A program made the position numbers and the translations under genes. The notes beneath the pieces are model-generated. The model was not told the DNA's origin. It saw only the letters and a program-made list of their open reading frames with translations, and did no database searches. From IMG/VR virus record IMGVR_UViG_3300045922_000457, positions 1-36,835 of that record: a stretch of DNA of 36,835 nucleotides. One strand, 5' to 3'. Within the stretch, counting starts at the first letter, position 1. Each line of letters opens with the position of its first letter. This document shows positions 2,043-15,117 of this stretch, piece by piece. The stretch comes from a virus.

Positions 2043-2216
2043 TCATCCTTTCTTCTGCTTGAAGTAGGTTCCGTTATTCTTCTTTTGAAGCTCGGAAATC
2101 TCCCTTCTAGCAGTTTTTAAATCAATTGGTGCGTAGGACTTTCTTTCAATCTTAGGCTTTGGTTCTGGTTTGACAACAAAAATATCTGTGTTTTTTACGT
2201 TCTTACCTTTCTTCAT
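2043..2216 (-). CDS. Small basic protein (57 aa)
   Basis: This short reading frame starts at ATG 2216, 14 nt inside the end of the small-terminase gene, and ends in a TGA that abuts the start cluster of the next gene. The product is Lys-rich (KKGKNVKN at the start, FKQKKG at the end). The tight overlaps at both ends and unbroken operon structure are the main evidence that it is real. The frame is preceded by GAAGAAAGG-type purines that could serve as ribosome binding site. Function unknown. Confidence 0.6.
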   Translation of the reverse strand: MKKGKNVKNTDIFVVKPEPKPKIERKSYAPIDLKTARREISELQKKNNGTYFKQKKG

Positions 2217-2826
2217 AAAAATCCTTCAACTCATCAATAGTAGAATGCTCAACTTCTATTGCATTTTCTTTTGCTTTTTTAAGCTCGTCAAAGACATCTG
2301 CAATAATTGTTGTTTTTTGCTCAATCATTTCTCTTGGCTTACCAAGAGCACGGTCCATCATTTGTTTTGCGGCTTCAAGCCTTACAGTGCTTTTTTCCTT
2401 TTCAGAAGTCATAATGCTGTAGGTAGTAGCAACCGCTTCTGGAAGGATCTTTGTAAAGATTTGATCCATTTGTTTTTTAATTACTTCTGTTGAAAGTCGA
2501 TCTACTTCGCTTTTGATGCTACGAGAGGCAAGTGCTCTTCGGACTGTGCTTACTTGGCAGTTCAATTGTTTTGCGATGGTTGTGTCGTTAAAGCCGATTG
2601 ATGCGTAATAAATAACCATTCTGTAGAAGTGTTCTCTTCTATGGTCTAAGTCTTGTATCTTGGTTAATGACTGGGCCATTGTATCCAGTCGTTCGATGAT
2701 CTTTTCTTGAGTATCACCAAGTTTTGCGGCTAATGCTGCACTCTTTCCGAGTGCTTCCATAATTGGACGTTCTTTTCGGTATCTAACTCTTGTTTCTACC
2801 TTTTTACTCGGTTTTTTATCATTCAT
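2203..2826 (-). CDS. Terminase small subunit-like DNA-binding protein
   Basis: The 207-aa product carries a helix-turn-helix-like stretch (FNDTTIAKQLNCQVSTVRRA) preceded by a charged helical region and followed by a long helical tail. This resembles small terminases, which recognise the packaging site and hand DNA to the large subunit. I start at ATG 2826, which has GAGG 7 nt upstream. The same frame opens at 2922, but that would add a Cys-rich leader with a poor ribosome site. It is the first gene of the late unit. In circular layout it lies upstream of large terminase with the fibre and lysis genes between. Another HTH regulator is possible; identification rests on motif and position. Confidence 0.6.
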   Translation of the reverse strand: MNDKKPSKKVETRVRYRKERPIMEALGKSAALAAKLGDTQEKIIERLDTMAQSLTKIQDLDHRREHFYRMVIYYASIGFNDTTIAKQLNCQVSTVRRALASRSIKSEVDRLSTEVIKKQMDQIFTKILPEAVATTYSIMTSEKEKSTVRLEAAKQMMDRALGKPREMIEQKTTIIADVFDELKKAKENAIEVEHSTIDELKDFYEER

Positions 2827-3066
2827 TTTAAACCTCGTAGGGCCAAAAAAATCTGCCCTTGCACCGTTTGATACCTCATCCGTAAGGCATTGGAGACAAA
2901 CAAGCACAAAGGCAGAACTCATTTGGAAGGTCTAGGAACCCCATAAGGGGCACACATGACTTAATGTAAGTTTTACATTCTATCTCCCAAAATGACACTA
3001 TATAATTTTTACCATTTATTTTTTATATATTACAATTCTCACAATGATGATTCATAATCACCAGCC
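2827..3066. promoter_or_regulatory. Divergent early/late control region
   Basis: About 240 bp separates the late unit (minus) from the first early gene (plus). On the plus strand, TATAAT at 3001-3006 is a good -10, with only a weak -35 upstream; its start point would be near 3013. The block 3000-3035 is very AT-rich and has TAATAT/TATAAA on the minus strand, fitting a late promoter there. Two perfect palindromes flank the -10: 2963-2979 (AATGTAA, GTT, TTACATT) and 3048-3060 (TGATT, CAT, AATCA). A small CCCC-ATAA-GGGG hairpin lies at 2939-2950. No regulator can be assigned. Confidence 0.5.
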
Positions 3067-3390
3067 ATGAATAACAACCCAAAATACAAATCTTACACGC
3101 CGAATTGTAATGCTTGTTCAGATGTCGGGGTAATCTTGGTCGATGCCGAGTCTCCAGATACCGCTCCATACGCGTTTAAATGCTCGTGCGCGATGGGAAT
3201 GATTAAGTATAGTGCTTTACCCTCTGTTGGACAAATCTATCGTAGAATCAAAAAAGAAGACGGTACGTGGGCAAATCAAGCAAAAGACGTCAATCCAAGC
3301 TACAAACGATCTACCGCCCCCTTCGACAACACCCAAGCCATCGTTCGTAAACCGTCTTTCGTCATCAATGATGAAGATTTAATTTTTTAA
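3067..3390 (+). CDS. Putative zinc-ribbon protein (107 aa)
   Basis: This is the first early gene. The N-terminal half has a four-cysteine pattern, Cys14-x2-Cys17 and Cys39-x-Cys41, spaced like a zinc ribbon. The C-terminal half is basic and polar with no obvious fold. No clear Shine-Dalgarno sequence precedes ATG 3067. The gene is separated from the other early genes by about 1.4 kb, so it probably forms its own transcript from the TATAAT at 3001, ending at the plus-strand terminator-like hairpin at 3450-3528. Function unknown; nucleic-acid binding is a guess from the ribbon. Confidence 0.6.
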   Translation: MNNNPKYKSYTPNCNACSDVGVILVDAESPDTAPYAFKCSCAMGMIKYSALPSVGQIYRRIKKEDGTWANQAKDVNPSYKRSTAPFDNTQAIVRKPSFVINDEDLIF

Positions 3391-3398
3391 ATTTCTCT

Positions 3399-3442
3399 AA
3401 AAAAAAGAATACCCATCTTGAGTTTTATCCCGAGATGGGTAT
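3399..3442 (-). terminator. Strong intrinsic terminator for a minus-strand transcript
   Basis: Read on the minus strand, a perfect 10-bp stem (ATACCCATCT with AGATGGGTAT, loop of 14 nt) is followed after TC by eight T residues. No minus-strand gene lies just upstream, so it either ends a minus-strand RNA coming from 3450-4200 or blocks antisense transcription into the divergent promoter. Confidence 0.65.
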
Positions 3443-3449
3443 GATATGG

Positions 3450-3528
3450 ACTAACAGGATTGCTAGACCCAGAATAAGGCTTCGATGCCTGAGATTCAAT
3501 AGCAATCTTGTTGGTTGCTTATTTTTTT
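3450..3528 (+). terminator. Terminator-like long hairpin for the first early gene
   Basis: ACTAACAGGATTGCT (3450-3464) pairs with AGCAATCTTGTTGGT (3501-3515): 15 pairs, two of them G-U if read as plus-strand RNA. A small inner hairpin AGGC/GCCT lies at 3477-3490. TGCTTA and then seven T residues (3522-3528) follow. The G-U pairs and T tract both favour plus-strand use. The 36-nt loop is long for a terminator, so it may instead be part of the structured RNA that follows. Confidence 0.5.
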
Positions 3529-3539
3529 GGGGTACTCCT

Positions 3540-3804
3540 TGTGGTGCCCACAGTGCGGTGAGATGACTGAAATCGAACGTAGCCGCATGGGATCGAAAGA
3601 TCCTCCTGGCTTGTGCCAGTAGCATAGCTTGAAGAGTAAGGTCCTCGTTCAAGCACACAGGGGCCAGACCGATAGCCGACCGACCGACGTGGTCAGAAAG
3701 TTATCGAGTAAGTATTCGGGACGGGAGTCGTTAAATCGACGGTAATAGTGCCATGACACCTACAGAGAGGTAACTCTGGCACCCCCAAGGGGATCCAGAC
3801 CACC
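3540..3804 (+). ncRNA. Candidate structured non-coding RNA, hairpin-dense
   Basis: Hairpins follow one another almost without gaps. They are 3540-3552 (TGTGG/CCACA), 3553-3588 (GTGCGG/CCGCAT), 3589-3604 (GGGATC, GAAA tetraloop, GATCCT), 3606-3619 (CTGGC/GCCAG), 3627-3654 (GCTTGAA and GAG paired with CTC and TTCAAGC), 3727-3740 (GTCG/CGAC) and 3748-3782 (GTGCCA/TGGCAC with inner ACCT/AGGT). GTGGTC 3689-3694 can pair with GACCAC 3798-3803 and enclose the last two. A GNRA loop and several G-U pairs favour the plus strand; the minus-strand terminator at 3399-3442 argues the other way. It resembles no RNA I can name. Comparison with large phage RNAs such as GOLLD and ROOL is warranted. Confidence 0.45.
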
Positions 3805-4046
3805 CACCCGTAAGTCCTTACAAAAGACCATACGCACCTGCTGGAAGGACGAACATAAAAATAAAATCACACACTAAGTAGTCTTTTTTAGCCATCCCTC
3901 CGCCTCCCTCCCTCCGTGGTCAGGATTACCAGTACTAGGCTGTGTGGTAGCTTGATGGCGGCTTTAATGGAGGTTTTGAATTAGGCTATACTTTAAGTAT
4001 TTGGCTTGAATTCTGTCCTTTGGTTGAATTTAAAAAAAAGAACTTT
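3805..4046. other. Non-coding stretch with polypyrimidine tract and possible long-range helix
   Basis: No gene is supported here. There is a T6 run at 3883-3888, a pyrimidine tract of CCCTCC units at about 3893-3916, and a near-palindrome ATACTT-T-AAGTAT around 3988-4000. GGCTATACTTTA near 3985 is almost complementary to TAAAGTATAACC near 4175, which could close a ~190-nt RNA domain; the one mismatch would be G-U on the minus strand. TATACT at 3987-3992 could alternatively be a plus-strand -10 with a poor -35. Confidence 0.35.
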
Positions 4047-4150
4047 GTAGAAAGCACAGATTGCGAACGATGGCTAGATCATTCGAAAGAAAGACAGCCC
4101 ACGTGCGATATTGGCTACGTAGAAAGATAATACTGCGTACGATGGCTAGA
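4047..4150. repeat. Pair of 32-nt imperfect direct repeats inside a possible RNA domain
   Basis: Copies at 4047-4078 and 4119-4150 share GTAGAAAG, then six variable bases, YTGCG, one base, and ACGATGGCTAGA. They start exactly 72 nt apart. ATCATTC (4078-4084), beginning at the last base of the first copy, can pair with GAATGAT (4156-4162) just after the second, with an extra G-U pair in plus-strand sense. Conserved blocks separated by a variable block look like repeated RNA structural modules or protein-binding sites. Confidence 0.55.
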
Positions 4151-4366
4151 ACTATGAATGATGTCCCACTTACCTAAAGTATAACCAAACACTTTGCACA
4201 ATGTGACCAATGCTAAAACCCATAGGCATGGATCGGGGGGGATATTCCCCCACTCTCACACCCCGCGGGCACGCATGGCAAGGTGGTGCCCCCCTGGGGG
4301 GGTTGATGGTGTGCTTAGGGGTTAGGTTTGTGGGGTTGGATTTTGGGAGGGGGGGTGCTTTTTTGG

Positions 4367-4629
4367 TTACGCATGGGGTTTTGGGGCTTGGGATTCCTTG
4401 GGGGAAGTGAGTGGGTTGTTACGCATGGGGTTTAGGCTTGTGGGTGTTTGGGCTAGTTTGGTTAAGGCTTGGGGGGTTAGGCGCTTGGGTTGGGTTCGGG
4501 GCTTGGCTTCGGGGCTTGGCTTAGGGGTTTTGGCTCTGTGTTACGCTGTGTGTTAGTAAGAGGGTACACTATCCTCAGGCGCTGGGGTTTACCCATGGGG
4601 GTTATGTAAGTGGGTTACCCATTGGGGTT
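4367..4629 (+). repeat. Four iteron-like repeats, TTAC(G/C)CAT(G/T)GGG(G)GTT
   Basis: Copies lie at 4367-4380 (TTACGCATGGGGTT), 4419-4432 (same), 4589-4603 (TTACCCATGGGGGTT) and 4615-4629 (TTACCCATTGGGGTT), all in one orientation. Their start spacings are 52, 170 and 26 bp. Same-orientation short repeats in a non-coding region beside replication genes are typical of initiator-binding iterons, but no initiator protein is recognised in the window. Confidence 0.5.
4495..4520 (+). repeat. 13-bp perfect tandem duplication
   Basis: TTCGGGGCTTGGC occurs twice in immediate tandem (4495-4507 and 4508-4520), followed by TTAGGGG. It lies within the G-rich block and may reflect replication slippage or a repeated binding site. 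Confidence 0.7.
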
Positions 4630-4797
4630 AGTACGAGGGCTACCCCGTTCGTTACACTCACTCTGATGGCGGCTGTGGGTTGGGTTTAGCTTATGGGTGT
4701 TGTGTGTAGTGTCAAGTAAAAAGTGTGGTTATTGGGTTTTTTGGGGGCTTAATTGGAACGCGGCGCATTGGTTGGAATGGGTTTTTTAAAAAAATGC

Positions 4798-4826
4798 TTG
4801 CATTGGTTGTGTAAATGGTGTAATGT
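4798..4826 (+). promoter_or_regulatory. Early promoter with twin GTGTAA motif (copy 1)
   Basis: TTGCAT (4798-4803) lies 17 bp from TAATGT (4821-4826). Between and overlapping these are GTGTAAATG and GTGTAATG (4809-4825), a direct repeat with a 9-nt period. The same twin motif precedes the 89-aa gene and the clamp-like gene. It is placed just before the ribosome site of the first pentapeptide-repeat gene. Confidence 0.5.
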
Positions 4827-4848
4827 TGTAACTGAAAAGGAGGCAAAA

Positions 4849-5544
4849 ATGGCTATACAGTTAAAAAACAAAAATGGTGACGTAATCTACTCTGCTGACG
4901 CCGATAACATAGAGAATGCAATCGTCATGGCGTTGAAAGATGAAGTCGATCTTTCTGGTATTGATTTAAGGGGTCAAAAAATCTACAACCTTCACCTGAA
5001 AAATGTTGACCTAAGTGGTGTAGATTTTTCTGGTGCCTTGCTTGCTGGATGCGAACTATTTAATTCTAATCTGGATGATTCAAACTTCAATAATGCTATA
5101 CTTAGGGGTTGTTCGTTTAATCGCTGCATCATTAGAAGATGCTCTTTTGTTGAATCCGAACTAATAGGATCAGACTTTTATGACTCTTATTTTGTGGGGT
5201 CACGTTTTGAAAATTCTTCCATTGAACGCTGTAGCGTTGAGTTTTCTAATCTAGAAGAGTGTGACATGTTCTTAGTTGACTTAAGTCATTCAAGTTTTTA
5301 CTCGAGTAATTTGTCTTACTCTTCAATGAGAGAAACATACGGAGAAATGGTTAATTTCAACGACGCGAATCTAACCAATTGTGATTTTACGGAGTGTAAT
5401 TTTCTAGATGCTTCTTTTGATGGAGCCAAACTAGAGGGGGCAAACTTTAAGGACGCTGAGATTTATTGCGATGAAATTGATCTTTTAAGTCAAAAAAACA
5501 AACTTAAAAACGTAAAAAACAGCGAATCAATTATTTTTGGTTGA
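4849..5544 (+). CDS. Pentapeptide-repeat protein 1 (231 aa)
   Basis: Residues ~33-205 are made of five-residue repeats of the A(D/N)LXX type, for example DLSGVDFSGALLAGC and the region around NFNNAILRGC, predicting a right-handed beta-helix. Pentapeptide-repeat proteins such as Qnr and MfpA mimic DNA and bind gyrase. A DNA-mimic or anti-defence role is inferred here because the ArdC-like gene follows two genes later and a paralogue lies beyond it. The short N-terminal region (QLKNKNGDVIYSA) is shared with that paralogue. The start is ATG 4849 with AAGGAGG 5 nt upstream; the frame extends to 4753 without a good ribosome site. The protein is unusually Cys-rich and acidic in places. Confidence 0.85.
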   Translation: MAIQLKNKNGDVIYSADADNIENAIVMALKDEVDLSGIDLRGQKIYNLHLKNVDLSGVDFSGALLAGCELFNSNLDDSNFNNAILRGCSFNRCIIRRCSFVESELIGSDFYDSYFVGSRFENSSIERCSVEFSNLEECDMFLVDLSHSSFYSSNLSYSSMRETYGEMVNFNDANLTNCDFTECNFLDASFDGAKLEGANFKDAEIYCDEIDLLSQKNKLKNVKNSESIIFG

Positions 5545-5877: not shown

Positions 5878-6678
5878 ATGGAAAAGATTAAAATAGACAT
5901 GAGCGGGCTTCTCGCCGAAGCCGTATCGAAGCCTGGAATGATACTAGAAGCCTATTCGGCTTTTACTGGCCGATATTCAATCGGTAACCGACTTTGGGCA
6001 ATGCGGCAATGTGTCGAGCGTGGAATTCCAGTCGCGCCCATAGGGACTTTCAAGTTTTGGGAGTCCAAGGGACGACGCGTTAAGAAGGGCGAAAAGGCTT
6101 TATCCTTACTTGTGCCAGTAAAAATCAAAAAAAAAGACGAAAACGGAGAAGAGACTGACGAGAGTTTTGTGCTATTTAGGGCGGTAAACCGTTTTTTTAC
6201 CATGCACCAAACGGAGGGAGAAAATTACACGCCCGAATCTTTTGGTGAATGGAATCGTGACACCGCGCTTAAAAATCTCAATATCAATTTAGTAACTTTC
6301 GAGCATATGAACGGAAACGTGCAAGGTTATGCTTCTGGTAGAGATATCGCAATTAATCCAATGGCGCAATTACCGCATAAAACACTATTCCACGAGATTG
6401 CGCACGTCATTCTTGGCCACACCGATATCGAAGCGCATGACTCTTTCAATACGCCTAGAAATATCAAGGAAGTCGAGGCTGAAAGTGTAGCGCTCATTTG
6501 TTGTGAAGCATTGAAGCTTGAAGGTGCGGAGTATTGCCGAGGATATATTCAGAGTTGGCTTGGATCTAAAAATACTATTGAAGAAAAGTCGGCAAAACGC
6601 ATTTTTTCGGCTGCCAACAAAATCTTAGAAGCTGGCTACGAAAAAAGTGAAGAGGTCGAAAATGAAGACTGCGCTTGA
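5878..6678 (+). CDS. ArdC-like antirestriction protein with metallopeptidase motif
   Basis: The 266-aa product has an N-terminal region like ArdC (DUF1738-type) with FWESKGRRVKKGEKAL at about residues 60-75. A zincin-like domain follows: HEIAH at residues 172-176 (LFHEIAHVILGH), with a likely third zinc ligand in EVEAES (residues 198-203). ArdC proteins bind ssDNA and protect incoming DNA from type I restriction; in this phage it would act early in infection. The start at 5878 follows a modest AGGATG. It is flanked by two pentapeptide-repeat genes, which suggests a counter-defence island. A general ImmA/IrrE-like peptidase role is the alternative. Confidence 0.8.
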   Translation: MEKIKIDMSGLLAEAVSKPGMILEAYSAFTGRYSIGNRLWAMRQCVERGIPVAPIGTFKFWESKGRRVKKGEKALSLLVPVKIKKKDENGEETDESFVLFRAVNRFFTMHQTEGENYTPESFGEWNRDTALKNLNINLVTFEHMNGNVQGYASGRDIAINPMAQLPHKTLFHEIAHVILGHTDIEAHDSFNTPRNIKEVEAESVALICCEALKLEGAEYCRGYIQSWLGSKNTIEEKSAKRIFSAANKILEAGYEKSEEVENEDCA

Positions 6679-7639: not shown

Positions 7640-8251
7640 ATGAATACAATACCAATTGAAGCATTAAAACATATTGAAACTGCGATGAAAGAAGTCTGCT
7701 CTAATGATGAAGCTAGAAAAAATCTTCAATTTGTGTATCTGACTTTCGATGGAAAAAAGGTTAAAGTACAAGCATCCAACGGATACATAATGACAGAAAG
7801 ATTTTTTAATTGTGAAACTGACTTCACTGGCGAATACCAGATAAGCAAAGATCTTCTTAAGGTAGTTTCATTATTGATAAAAGAAAAGGGTCACCATTAT
7901 CTAATGGTAAAAGATGGAGATAACATAAAAATATGTCTATACAATAGACCGGTCGAGGTGTTTTTAACTCCATCAAAAGATAATAAACCGTGTTTTGACA
8001 AGGTCATGAAAGACCATAAAAACATAAAATACAGCATAAGATGCGGCAATGAAAATGAAACTTTTATCGATGTTGAGTTTAATCCTGAACTACTATTAAA
8101 AGTTTTTAAGGCCATGAAAATTCATAGAAATGAGAAGGGAATCAGAGTCAGAATTTCACTAACCAACAAAAACGGTATCATATCTCAACGTCCTGTGGCT
8201 ATGGTCATAGATAGAGGTCACGACACTGCCTTGTTGATGCCAATGATGTAA
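7640..8251 (+). CDS. Sliding-clamp-like protein (DnaN-like, shortened)
   Basis: The 203-aa product begins with an ALKHIETAMKEVC helix. A strand set follows, including LTFDGKKVKVQASNGYIM and the EYQISKDLLKVV segment, as in a beta-clamp domain. It ends in DTALLMPMM, which resembles the VMPMRL-type end of bacterial DnaN. Clamps encircle DNA and tether polymerases and repair enzymes. The normal subunit has three domains (~370 aa), so this one would have to form a different oligomer. The GAAAAGGAG ribosome site is clear. No phage polymerase is present, so it may recruit or divert the host replisome. The assignment is by fold-like features only. Confidence 0.5.
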   Translation: MNTIPIEALKHIETAMKEVCSNDEARKNLQFVYLTFDGKKVKVQASNGYIMTERFFNCETDFTGEYQISKDLLKVVSLLIKEKGHHYLMVKDGDNIKICLYNRPVEVFLTPSKDNKPCFDKVMKDHKNIKYSIRCGNENETFIDVEFNPELLLKVFKAMKIHRNEKGIRVRISLTNKNGIISQRPVAMVIDRGHDTALLMPMM

Positions 8252-9445: not shown

Positions 9446-9889
9446 ATGATACAAAATAGTATTATTGCAAAGATTAAAAAGACCGCAACTGTAGAACAAA
9501 GGGCATTTAATGATAACGCTTCTAATAGAGCTAAAGATTATATTCGTAAGGCTTTTGAAGAGATTAAGCCATACGGAGCCATCCATGCTGAGACAATTGT
9601 TCTATCGTTTTTTACGACTAACGACATAATCACCGGTAAAACAGAGGCCGGACTTGTTTCTTACAAGGTCTTAGCAAAAGATGTCGACGGAAAAGAATAT
9701 GAGCTTTCACCAGAGATTAGACAACAATTTCTAACCGAGGCAAGGGATCGTCTTTGGGAGTTAATGGGTGCTAAGTTGTTTAAGGGTGGGGCGAAAACCA
9801 CTGAGCAGGTTTTAGATGAGCTAAGGGATGCAGGGGCTTCGAACGAAGTTATTAATGATTTCAAGAAGGAGCAAGGCCTAAATGATTAA
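9446..9889 (+). CDS. Unknown early protein (147 aa)
   Basis: The frame opens with TTG at 9410, inside the promoter, so ATG 9446 (MIQNSIIAKIKKTATVEQ) is the better start even though it has no Shine-Dalgarno motif. The middle is an alpha/beta mixture (ETIVLSFFTTNDIITG), and the C-terminal third contains a small UBA-like helical run (TEQVLDELRDAGASNEVINDF). I do not recognise the family. It heads the recombination operon (RHH protein, nuclease, Sak4-like ATPase), with an 8-bp overlap into the RHH gene. Confidence 0.65.
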   Translation: MIQNSIIAKIKKTATVEQRAFNDNASNRAKDYIRKAFEEIKPYGAIHAETIVLSFFTTNDIITGKTEAGLVSYKVLAKDVDGKEYELSPEIRQQFLTEARDRLWELMGAKLFKGGAKTTEQVLDELRDAGASNEVINDFKKEQGLND

Positions 9890-13711: not shown

Positions 13712-13871
13712 CATATTGATATGGGTTTTGGCTATATTAATTTGGGTTTTGGTTCCGGTAGGTTGCACTTCGGTTCCAAAACCGGACAGGCGTGAAATTA
13801 AAGAGATTCCTTATGTTTTTAGCTGCGAATTGAGAATGCAAGGTGGACACAAGGTGTACATATGCCCATAA
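13683..13871 (+). CDS. Small lipoprotein A (62 aa)
   Basis: The N terminus has Lys2, then a long hydrophobic segment (FHIFDILIWVLAILIWVL) ending in a lipobox-like VPVGC, so mature protein should start at Cys28 as an outer- or inner-membrane lipoprotein. The short mature part ends in SCELRMQGGHKVYICP, a Cys-x-GGH-x-IC hairpin shared with the lipoproteins at 34137 and 35168. It is unusual to find one within early genes. It could be an exclusion or spanin-like factor. The start overlaps the upstream gene by 29 bp. Confidence 0.65.
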   Translation: MKTLIFHIFDILIWVLAILIWVLVPVGCTSVPKPDRREIKEIPYVFSCELRMQGGHKVYICP

Positions 13872-14605
13872 ATAAACCTTTAGATAAAGAGCTGGTAGAA
13901 AAGGTTTTATGTCTCGCCAAAGAGATGAATGGAAAACAAATAGCTGAAAATCTTGGAATTAATACCAATAGGGTTTGGTATATTCTAAAGAAGTATAATG
14001 TTAAGCCCAAGAAAACCCACCACAGAGATATCTCTCAAGTTTTAGAGATTGTTAGATATTGCAAAATCCACAAAAGAAAAAAGACTCTTGAGAAGTTTGG
14101 GATTACAAAACATCAGCTTCAACGTTGTCATATCAGGTATAAAAAAATTCAAAAGAAATTCATTGAGCGCGAGCCACAGCTGAGACAGGCGGCGTTTTCT
14201 TACGCTTTTGTGAAAGAGAATTGCTTAAAAGAAACCGCGGAAGAGTTTGCATCTTATTGCGTTGAAAAGTTCATTGAAAAAGATAAAGGAGTTTTCTTTG
14301 AAACGGCATTTGCTGATTTCATGCGTGAGCGCGTTGGAAGAGTTGGAACCGCCAAGAGCGAAGCCAATAAAGCTACATTAAGCATTCTTGAAAAGGAAGT
14401 TTCCTACACAATGAATGACGAAGGATCTGTTTACGATTTACTGCCAAAAACACTGAACGGATTACTAGTAGCCCTCGTTTACAAATACGGGCTTACAAAA
14501 AGAGAAATAGCGCAACATCTTGGAGTTACTGAATCTGCCGTTGGGATTAGAATTAATAGAACAATAGAAAGGATGAGAGAGCAATATGGAAGAAGTTTGG
14601 CGTGA
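13862..14605 (+). CDS. Sigma-like transcription regulator with two HTH motifs
   Basis: The 247-aa protein has an N-terminal HTH (MNGKQIAENLGINTNRVWYI, residues 22-41) and a C-terminal one (LTKREIAQHLGVTESAVGIR, about 211-230) that closely resembles sigma-70 region 4. The helical middle (FVKENCLKETAEEFASYCVE) is loosely like region 2. AAGGTG precedes ATG 13862. It sits near the end of the early unit, where a late-gene switch would be expected, and the late unit has no recognised phage RNA polymerase. I infer a late sigma or activator; a non-sigma HTH regulator is the alternative. Confidence 0.55.
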   Translation: MPINKPLDKELVEKVLCLAKEMNGKQIAENLGINTNRVWYILKKYNVKPKKTHHRDISQVLEIVRYCKIHKRKKTLEKFGITKHQLQRCHIRYKKIQKKFIEREPQLRQAAFSYAFVKENCLKETAEEFASYCVEKFIEKDKGVFFETAFADFMRERVGRVGTAKSEANKATLSILEKEVSYTMNDEGSVYDLLPKTLNGLLVALVYKYGLTKREIAQHLGVTESAVGIRINRTIERMREQYGRSLA

Positions 14606-14969
14606 TGTAAACGGTTTTTCTAATTACAAAGTAAGCAACACCGGACTTGTAAAAAGGTGTGAGATGACCGCTGTTTATTACAGGCAGTCAGAAAAATACA
14701 AATGGAAAGATAATAAAGCAGAGACGCATTATCCAGAAATAATACTTAAGCCTTGTTTAAAAATTGGTTACGGAAAAGATCCTGTTGTAAGACTTAGAAA
14801 CAGTAAAGGAGTTTATGTTTTTAGAAAGGTTTGCAGGCTTGTTTCAGAGTCATTTCTTGGTACATCAAATGTTAATCATAGGGATGGGAACAGGTGGAAT
14901 AACTCTGTTGAAAATTTAGAGGTAGAAAATGGAAAACAGCAATACTACATTTATAAAAAACAAGTATGA
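14586..14969 (+). CDS. HNH homing-type endonuclease with NUMOD4 motif
   Basis: The 127-aa product opens with EEVWRDVNGFSNYKVSNTG, a NUMOD4-type DNA-binding start. It ends in an HNH core NHRDGNRWNNSVENLEV (residues 97-113), with the usual Asn-His-Arg-Asp and Asn-Asn-x-x-x-Asn-Leu pattern. Such free-standing endonucleases nick or cut DNA at specific sites and spread between phages. It overlaps the sigma-like gene by 20 bp, so it is well settled in the operon and may have been co-opted. Confidence 0.85.
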   Translation: MEEVWRDVNGFSNYKVSNTGLVKRCEMTAVYYRQSEKYKWKDNKAETHYPEIILKPCLKIGYGKDPVVRLRNSKGVYVFRKVCRLVSESFLGTSNVNHRDGNRWNNSVENLEVENGKQQYYIYKKQV

Positions 14970-15117
14970 CCACGATTCGTGGAGGGCTTGTTCTAATTGC
15001 GGCAGAAGATGTAGACATGAAAGCGGAATCTGCTCTTCTTGCAGAACTGGTTTTACAGAATCAACAAAAAGAAATAGGAATAAACTGATAAGAAAAGGTA
15101 AGTCTAAGTATGAGTAA
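14929..15117 (+). CDS. Small zinc-ribbon protein (62 aa)
   Basis: Cys21-x2-Cys24 and Cys35-x2-Cys38 (with an extra Cys28) form a rubredoxin-like zinc knuckle pair within ~20 residues. The rest is basic (TKRNRNKLIRKGKSKY). AGAGG lies before ATG 14929, inside the HNH gene, with a 41-bp overlap. It probably binds nucleic acid or a host protein such as RNA polymerase; this is inference from the small basic zinc-finger type. Confidence 0.65.
   Translation: MENSNTTFIKNKYDHDSWRACSNCGRRCRHESGICSSCRTGFTESTKRNRNKLIRKGKSKYE

Follow-up and report, generated by a model that had tools for sequence, protein, structure and literature searches.

The 1.45-kb divergent non-coding region of this phage genome may be a replication origin region, with its G+T-rich block as the start of rightward synthesis; this is our tentative reading, and on it the region would probably be opened or primed by a G-rich transcript. 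At the left edge of the block one strand switches to G+T beside two hairpins, the block carries the single predicted R-loop-forming stretch of the genome, and a similar junction layout is found in two relatives.

The window, i.e. the whole stretch of DNA that was analysed, is an entire virus record of 36,835 bp and, as the first-pass annotation had said, AT-rich (39.2% GC). Portal-like, capsid and large-terminase genes assign it to a tailed phage. Since the record ends join in frame via one long open reading frame and the relative G002 is collinear with the window across this join, a near-complete, circularly permuted genome is probable. A phage collection search gave no record matching the window, and a search of sequenced bacterial genomes with the capsid gene gave no prophage relatives. 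The non-coding region is flanked by a leftward late operon and a rightward early operon, whose first start codon (ATG at 4849) was picked from sequence, with AAAGGAGG upstream. The block lies, as had been proposed, between divergent operons and upstream of the clamp-like gene and of the genes for RusA (8753), exonuclease (9997) and a Sak4-like protein (11058). The phage has kept these four, and PHROG and Pfam scans of window genes recognised neither an initiator or helicase nor a primase or polymerase. Such a phage needs its host for replication and a route of its own to open and prime its DNA, although unrecognised small proteins could act as initiator.

Table 1. Positions of the features discussed, in window coordinates.
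Feature	Position	Strand	Remarks
Small terminase subunit	2203..2922	-	PHROG 2538, E 8e-9; first late gene left of the non-coding region
Divergent non-coding region	3391..4848 (~1.45 kb)		Longest stretch of the genome lacking plausible genes
Inverted repeat, left arm	3981..4004	+	TATACTTTA core; possible rightward promoter -10, no good -35
Inverted repeat, right arm	4166..4207	-	Inside leftward promoter-like site GTCACA-18-TATACT; consensus match only
Hairpin A	4235..4251	+	GGGGGGGATATTCCCCC; G001 has a counterpart in the corresponding position
Hairpin B	4258..4312	+	CACACCCC...CATGGCAAGG...TGCCCCCC...GGGGGGG
G+T-rich block	4296..4785	+	Strand switch at left edge
Predicted R-loop-forming sequence	4318..4782	+	QmRLFS rule; sole one in the genome, both strands scanned
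Repeat copy 1	4367..4381	+	TTACGCATGGGGTTT
Repeat copy 2	4419..4433	+	TTACGCATGGGGTTT
Repeat copy 3	4589..4603	+	TTACCCATGGGGGTT
Repeat copy 4	4615..4629	+	TTACCCATTGGGGTT
Pentapeptide-repeat protein	4849..5544	+	Pfam PF00805, E 2.3e-29; first early gene
ArdC-type antirestriction-like protein	5878..6678	+	Pfam PF08401, PHROG 7245
Clamp-like protein	7640..8251	+	PHROG 947 polymerase processivity factor, weak, E 6.6e-5

A block dominated by G and T had initially been placed at 4200-4748. The skew itself is borne out: this stretch comprises 215 G, 172 T, 86 C and 76 A, and the largest |G-C| of any 500-bp window in the genome, starting at 4281, is 142 as compared with at most 59 in 20 shuffled genomes. 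The edges had to be moved, the former start being about 95 bases early. Per 100 bases, G+T minus A+C is -10 in the slightly C-rich interval 4191-4290, +68 in 4291-4390 and positive from there to ~4790; a fine profile places the switch, to 10-20 bases, at ~4296, and the block extends to ~4785. Its GC content is ~56%, versus 39% for the genome. An excess of G over C and of T over A on one strand is the trace that prolonged single-strandedness of that strand would be expected to leave; transcription alone could produce the same richness. Such a strand could also be favoured by host RecA or the Sak4-like protein for loading or pairing and act as a recombination hotspot that seeds recombination-dependent replication. 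The exonuclease, Sak4-like and RusA genes, together with the lack of a recognised initiator, agree with this, as does the preference of RecA for Chi-resembling TGG-type repeats (PMC3763553); we nevertheless regard it as quite unlikely, given that such sites need be neither at a divergent junction nor at a hairpin-bounded switch.

The R-loop prediction follows the published QmRLFS rule with parameters from PMC4489302. In 20 shuffled genomes this rule, which was devised outside phages, found no stretch at all. The predicted stretch points toward the early genes. The + strand RNA of 4300-4474 is less folded than shuffled versions of it, as expected of a C-poor RNA. Quadruplexes had been suggested as well; there are indeed 32 runs of at least three G in the block and one strict four-tract motif (4375-4404), yet shuffled blocks contain 1.45 such motifs on average, so that there is no excess beyond composition. 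In other genomes, the R-loop stretches of G014, G039 and one of two in G032 fall in coding DNA (glycine-rich proteins, small terminase), and we found the second one of G032 and a short one in G019 unconvincing.

Left of the block, two opposed TATACTTTA motifs at 3985 and 4185 are found, of which only the leftward one has a -35-like hexamer, and no strong rightward promoter was seen left of the block. Hairpin B has a counterpart in G001 in which the AAG-loop core is kept, and a pattern search of viral contigs found it in G001 only; a match in one Oscillospiraceae contig was judged to be chance. Hairpin A was considered as a widespread phage element and dismissed: its motif has 18 matches in viral contigs, many in one unrelated small-virus family, a number that we take to be at chance level by our own rough estimate. 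Further left, the + strand of 3395-3665 contains two very stable hairpins (z -5.5) just past the gene at 3067-3390. A T-run follows one of them, 3404-3447, on the minus strand, so that a leftward transcript with its start near 4170 could terminate there. For 3400-3880, the minus strand is likewise more stably folded than shuffled versions (z -3.0). The region may encode a structured non-coding RNA of ~770 bases; an Rfam search of the non-coding region returned no known RNA family at E<=1. A minus-strand GGTGTGAGAG-GGGGG..CCCCC string and a similar string in L020 had raised the idea of a group II intron 3' end, which we abandoned: neither the window region nor L020 nor the G001 region matched an Rfam covariance model, domain V/VI included, at E<=1. 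A direct repeat (4047-4078 and 4119-4150, core TGCG(A/T)ACGATGGCTAGA) has a weaker third, reversed copy at 3333-3349, three copies being found where 0.11 are expected.

The four repeats of the form TTAC(G/C)CAT(G/T)GGG, 15 bp each, lie exactly where they had been reported, and 0.002 would be expected per shuffled block. Elsewhere in the genome just two weak copies with three mismatches occur; pairs of the repeat were found elsewhere in two unrelated contigs. Their presence directly before the first early gene, their partly palindromic CCCATGGG core, the inverted TATACTTTA motifs with the leftward promoter-like site and a weak match to an Arc-like repressor at 9882 would all suit a control region of the early operon, with repeats and inverted repeats as operators and the G-rich stretch as an untranslated leader tuning transcription or mRNA stability. 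We consider this unlikely, since regulation itself does not call for 490 bases of G+T, the repeats are irregularly spaced (52, 170, 26) over 260 bases, and they are absent in relatives. Iteron-type origins have several directly repeated binding sites for an initiator; the four direct repeats here exceed chance but are irregular in spacing. No cognate initiator was recognised in the window, and the block, at the GC content given above, has no A+T-rich unwinding element and no excess of DnaA boxes (2 DnaA-like sites versus 3.6 expected).

Relatives were collected by a capsid-based search (45) and an ArdC-based search (50 loci); a small-terminase search for more neighbours returned G001 and G002 only, in contigs without a new junction. 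The nucleotide sequence of the non-coding region is similar to nothing in phages, plasmids or the fetched relatives, including the capsid- and ArdC-search loci compared. G001 is close to the window, with a capsid protein 91% and an ArdC-type protein 63% identical. Its gap holds an element resembling window 4235-4310, with strand and hairpin order the same; out of 300 local shuffles, 3 align with as high a score, or 10 under harsher scoring, so that the likeness is good but not overwhelming. This element lies where the strand turns to G+T, though less strongly than in the window (-34..-10 before, +14..+32 after), but G001 has no QmRLFS stretch. G001 further has two genes without counterpart in the window, one for a DnaB/primase-helicase-type protein (PHROG 239, E 2.9e-32) and, upstream of it, one that is initiator-like in size and place and belongs to no known family. 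Around 3324 of its locus L119, a leftward promoter-like TTGACA-19-TATAAT with both hexamers perfect aims from the G+T side through the hairpin element. At ~580-815 of L119, a ~120-base tandem repeat at the contig join extends across the beginning of the small-terminase gene, which may be real or an assembly-end effect.

The more distant G010 (capsid 67%) has an extremely G-rich stretch of unrelated sequence, with 67 G in the first 100 bases, that is the sole predicted R-loop stretch of its genome and lies ~55 bases downstream of a promoter-like TTGATA-17-TAAAAT. There, the small terminase is followed by initiator-like and helicase-like genes, non-coding DNA and the G block, and then by ArdC-like, clamp-like, RusA, exonuclease and Sak4 genes; RusA, exonuclease and Sak4 were found by tblastn, whereas initiator, helicase, ArdC and clamp were named from translations. 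Ahead of the G block, at ~14790-15000 of G010 (L092), another GC-rich non-coding stretch contains many hairpins, with 16-base arms that match at 14 positions (CCCCCCAAGGAAGTGC / GCTCTTCTTTGGGGGG). In the window, G001 and G010 alike, the biggest composition jump between neighbouring 300-base windows is at this junction, which makes up 8%, 2% and 7% of the respective genomes. These likenesses support a functional site at the junction. However, G029, G030, G038 and the ArdC loci L121-L131 have the junction without a switch or R-loop stretch; relatives lacking the feature are no fewer than those showing it, and the favourable ones were recognised after looking. Absence in close relatives had been named as evidence against the earlier proposal, and the outcome is divided: no relative has the letters, while G001 and G010 have the architecture and several others lack it. 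The lack of letters conserved in any relative, and the many relatives without the feature, could reflect functionless drift, in which frequent transcription or single-strandedness gradually makes a long non-coding stretch G+T-rich. This seems very unlikely to us: C deamination would not raise GC from 39% to ~56%, the block has a sharp edge, drift would not be expected to yield repeats and hairpins, and idle DNA is rarely kept in phage genomes.

An origin, a packaging site and an R-loop-forming region had all been offered by the first-pass annotation. Origin or R-loop fits best, with the sole R-loop stretch, the switch beside hairpins and the two relatives; packaging fared poorly. A pac site cut by terminase would agree with the small-terminase gene 1.3 kb leftward, with record ends that join as in a circularly permuted genome, and with phage ICP1, whose pac site is found in an orfless space of 1.3 kb close to its proposed rolling-circle origin (PMC7145576). 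In both G001 and G010, however, a replication module separates the small-terminase gene from the switch. Packaging is highly improbable and the least supported of the rivals because, in relatives, the switch travels with ArdC and clamp and not with the small terminase.

For a replication origin, in turn, we counted that no initiator, helicase, primase or polymerase is recognised in the window while G001 has the helicase. We infer transcription through the block, R-loop formation, priming and origin identity as follows. Transcription would come into the block over the two GC hairpins on its left; the RNA, rich in G and poor in C, would be unable to fold on itself, and would re-pair with the C-rich template strand and displace the G+T strand over some 450 bases. 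The end of this RNA, or a host primosome on the displaced strand, would then start rightward synthesis by host replication enzymes.

This scheme has counterparts of varying closeness. The RNA II of ColE1 has a G-rich stretch. In this type of origin a pre-primer RNA starts at a promoter several hundred bases upstream, an antisense RNA covers its 5' end, and host Pol I starts from the primer after processing by RNase H. ColE1-type origins do without an initiator of their own and are opened and primed by RNA using host enzymes, with opposed transcripts (PMC5043065). The window would be alike in that no replicon-encoded initiator is recognised, that a hairpin-bearing non-coding transcript followed by a G-rich stretch would open or prime the origin with host enzymes, and that the G-rich stretch is predicted (4318-4782) to hold a persistent RNA-DNA hybrid. 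The opposed TATACTTTA motifs might allow a sense-antisense pair, but the leftward one alone has a promoter-like -35. The window differs in that no sequence relation to plasmids was found and in its much longer G-rich stretch; the counterpart of RNA I is a guess from the inverted motif. The mitochondrial heavy-strand origin has a G- and T-rich strand asymmetry. There, a stable transcription-made R-loop primes synthesis (PMC6317783); organism, polymerase and termination mechanism are different, and the likeness is one of logic only.

Among viruses, the Epstein-Barr lytic origin has an R-loop that recruits a single-stranded-DNA-binding protein (PMC7156643), and the window is similar in its predicted R-loop stretch at a putative viral origin. 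Epstein-Barr is an animal virus with its own replication proteins and an R-loop shown by experiment, whereas the window's is predicted, and no homology is implied. The satellite PLE has a non-coding origin with iterons that are bound by its own RepA. Both ICP1 and PLE have a large non-coding space in which repeats and a GC-skew feature serve replication (PMC7145576), and the window would be alike in this. Their case rests on read depth and deletions, and no initiator is recognised in the window.

More broadly, replication in this phage family could start at a transcription-made R-loop in a G+T block between the helicase and ArdC-clamp genes, the letters being free to change provided that one strand remains G-rich; one lineage, having dropped its own initiator and helicase, would rely on R-loop and host alone. 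We regard this wider proposal as doubtful. Apart from a few models, there has been little study of how replication starts in small tailed phages that have neither initiator nor helicase genes. Should the predicted stretch mark the origin, origins of uncultivated phages could be found by composition alone, without conserved letters, and R-loop priming as in ColE1 and mitochondria would be shown to occur in a phage family too. As a minor observation on the gene content, the protein encoded at 13862-14605 combines an N-terminal HTH with a C-terminal match to sigma-70 region 4 (Pfam E 1e-7) and is a possible phage sigma-like factor.
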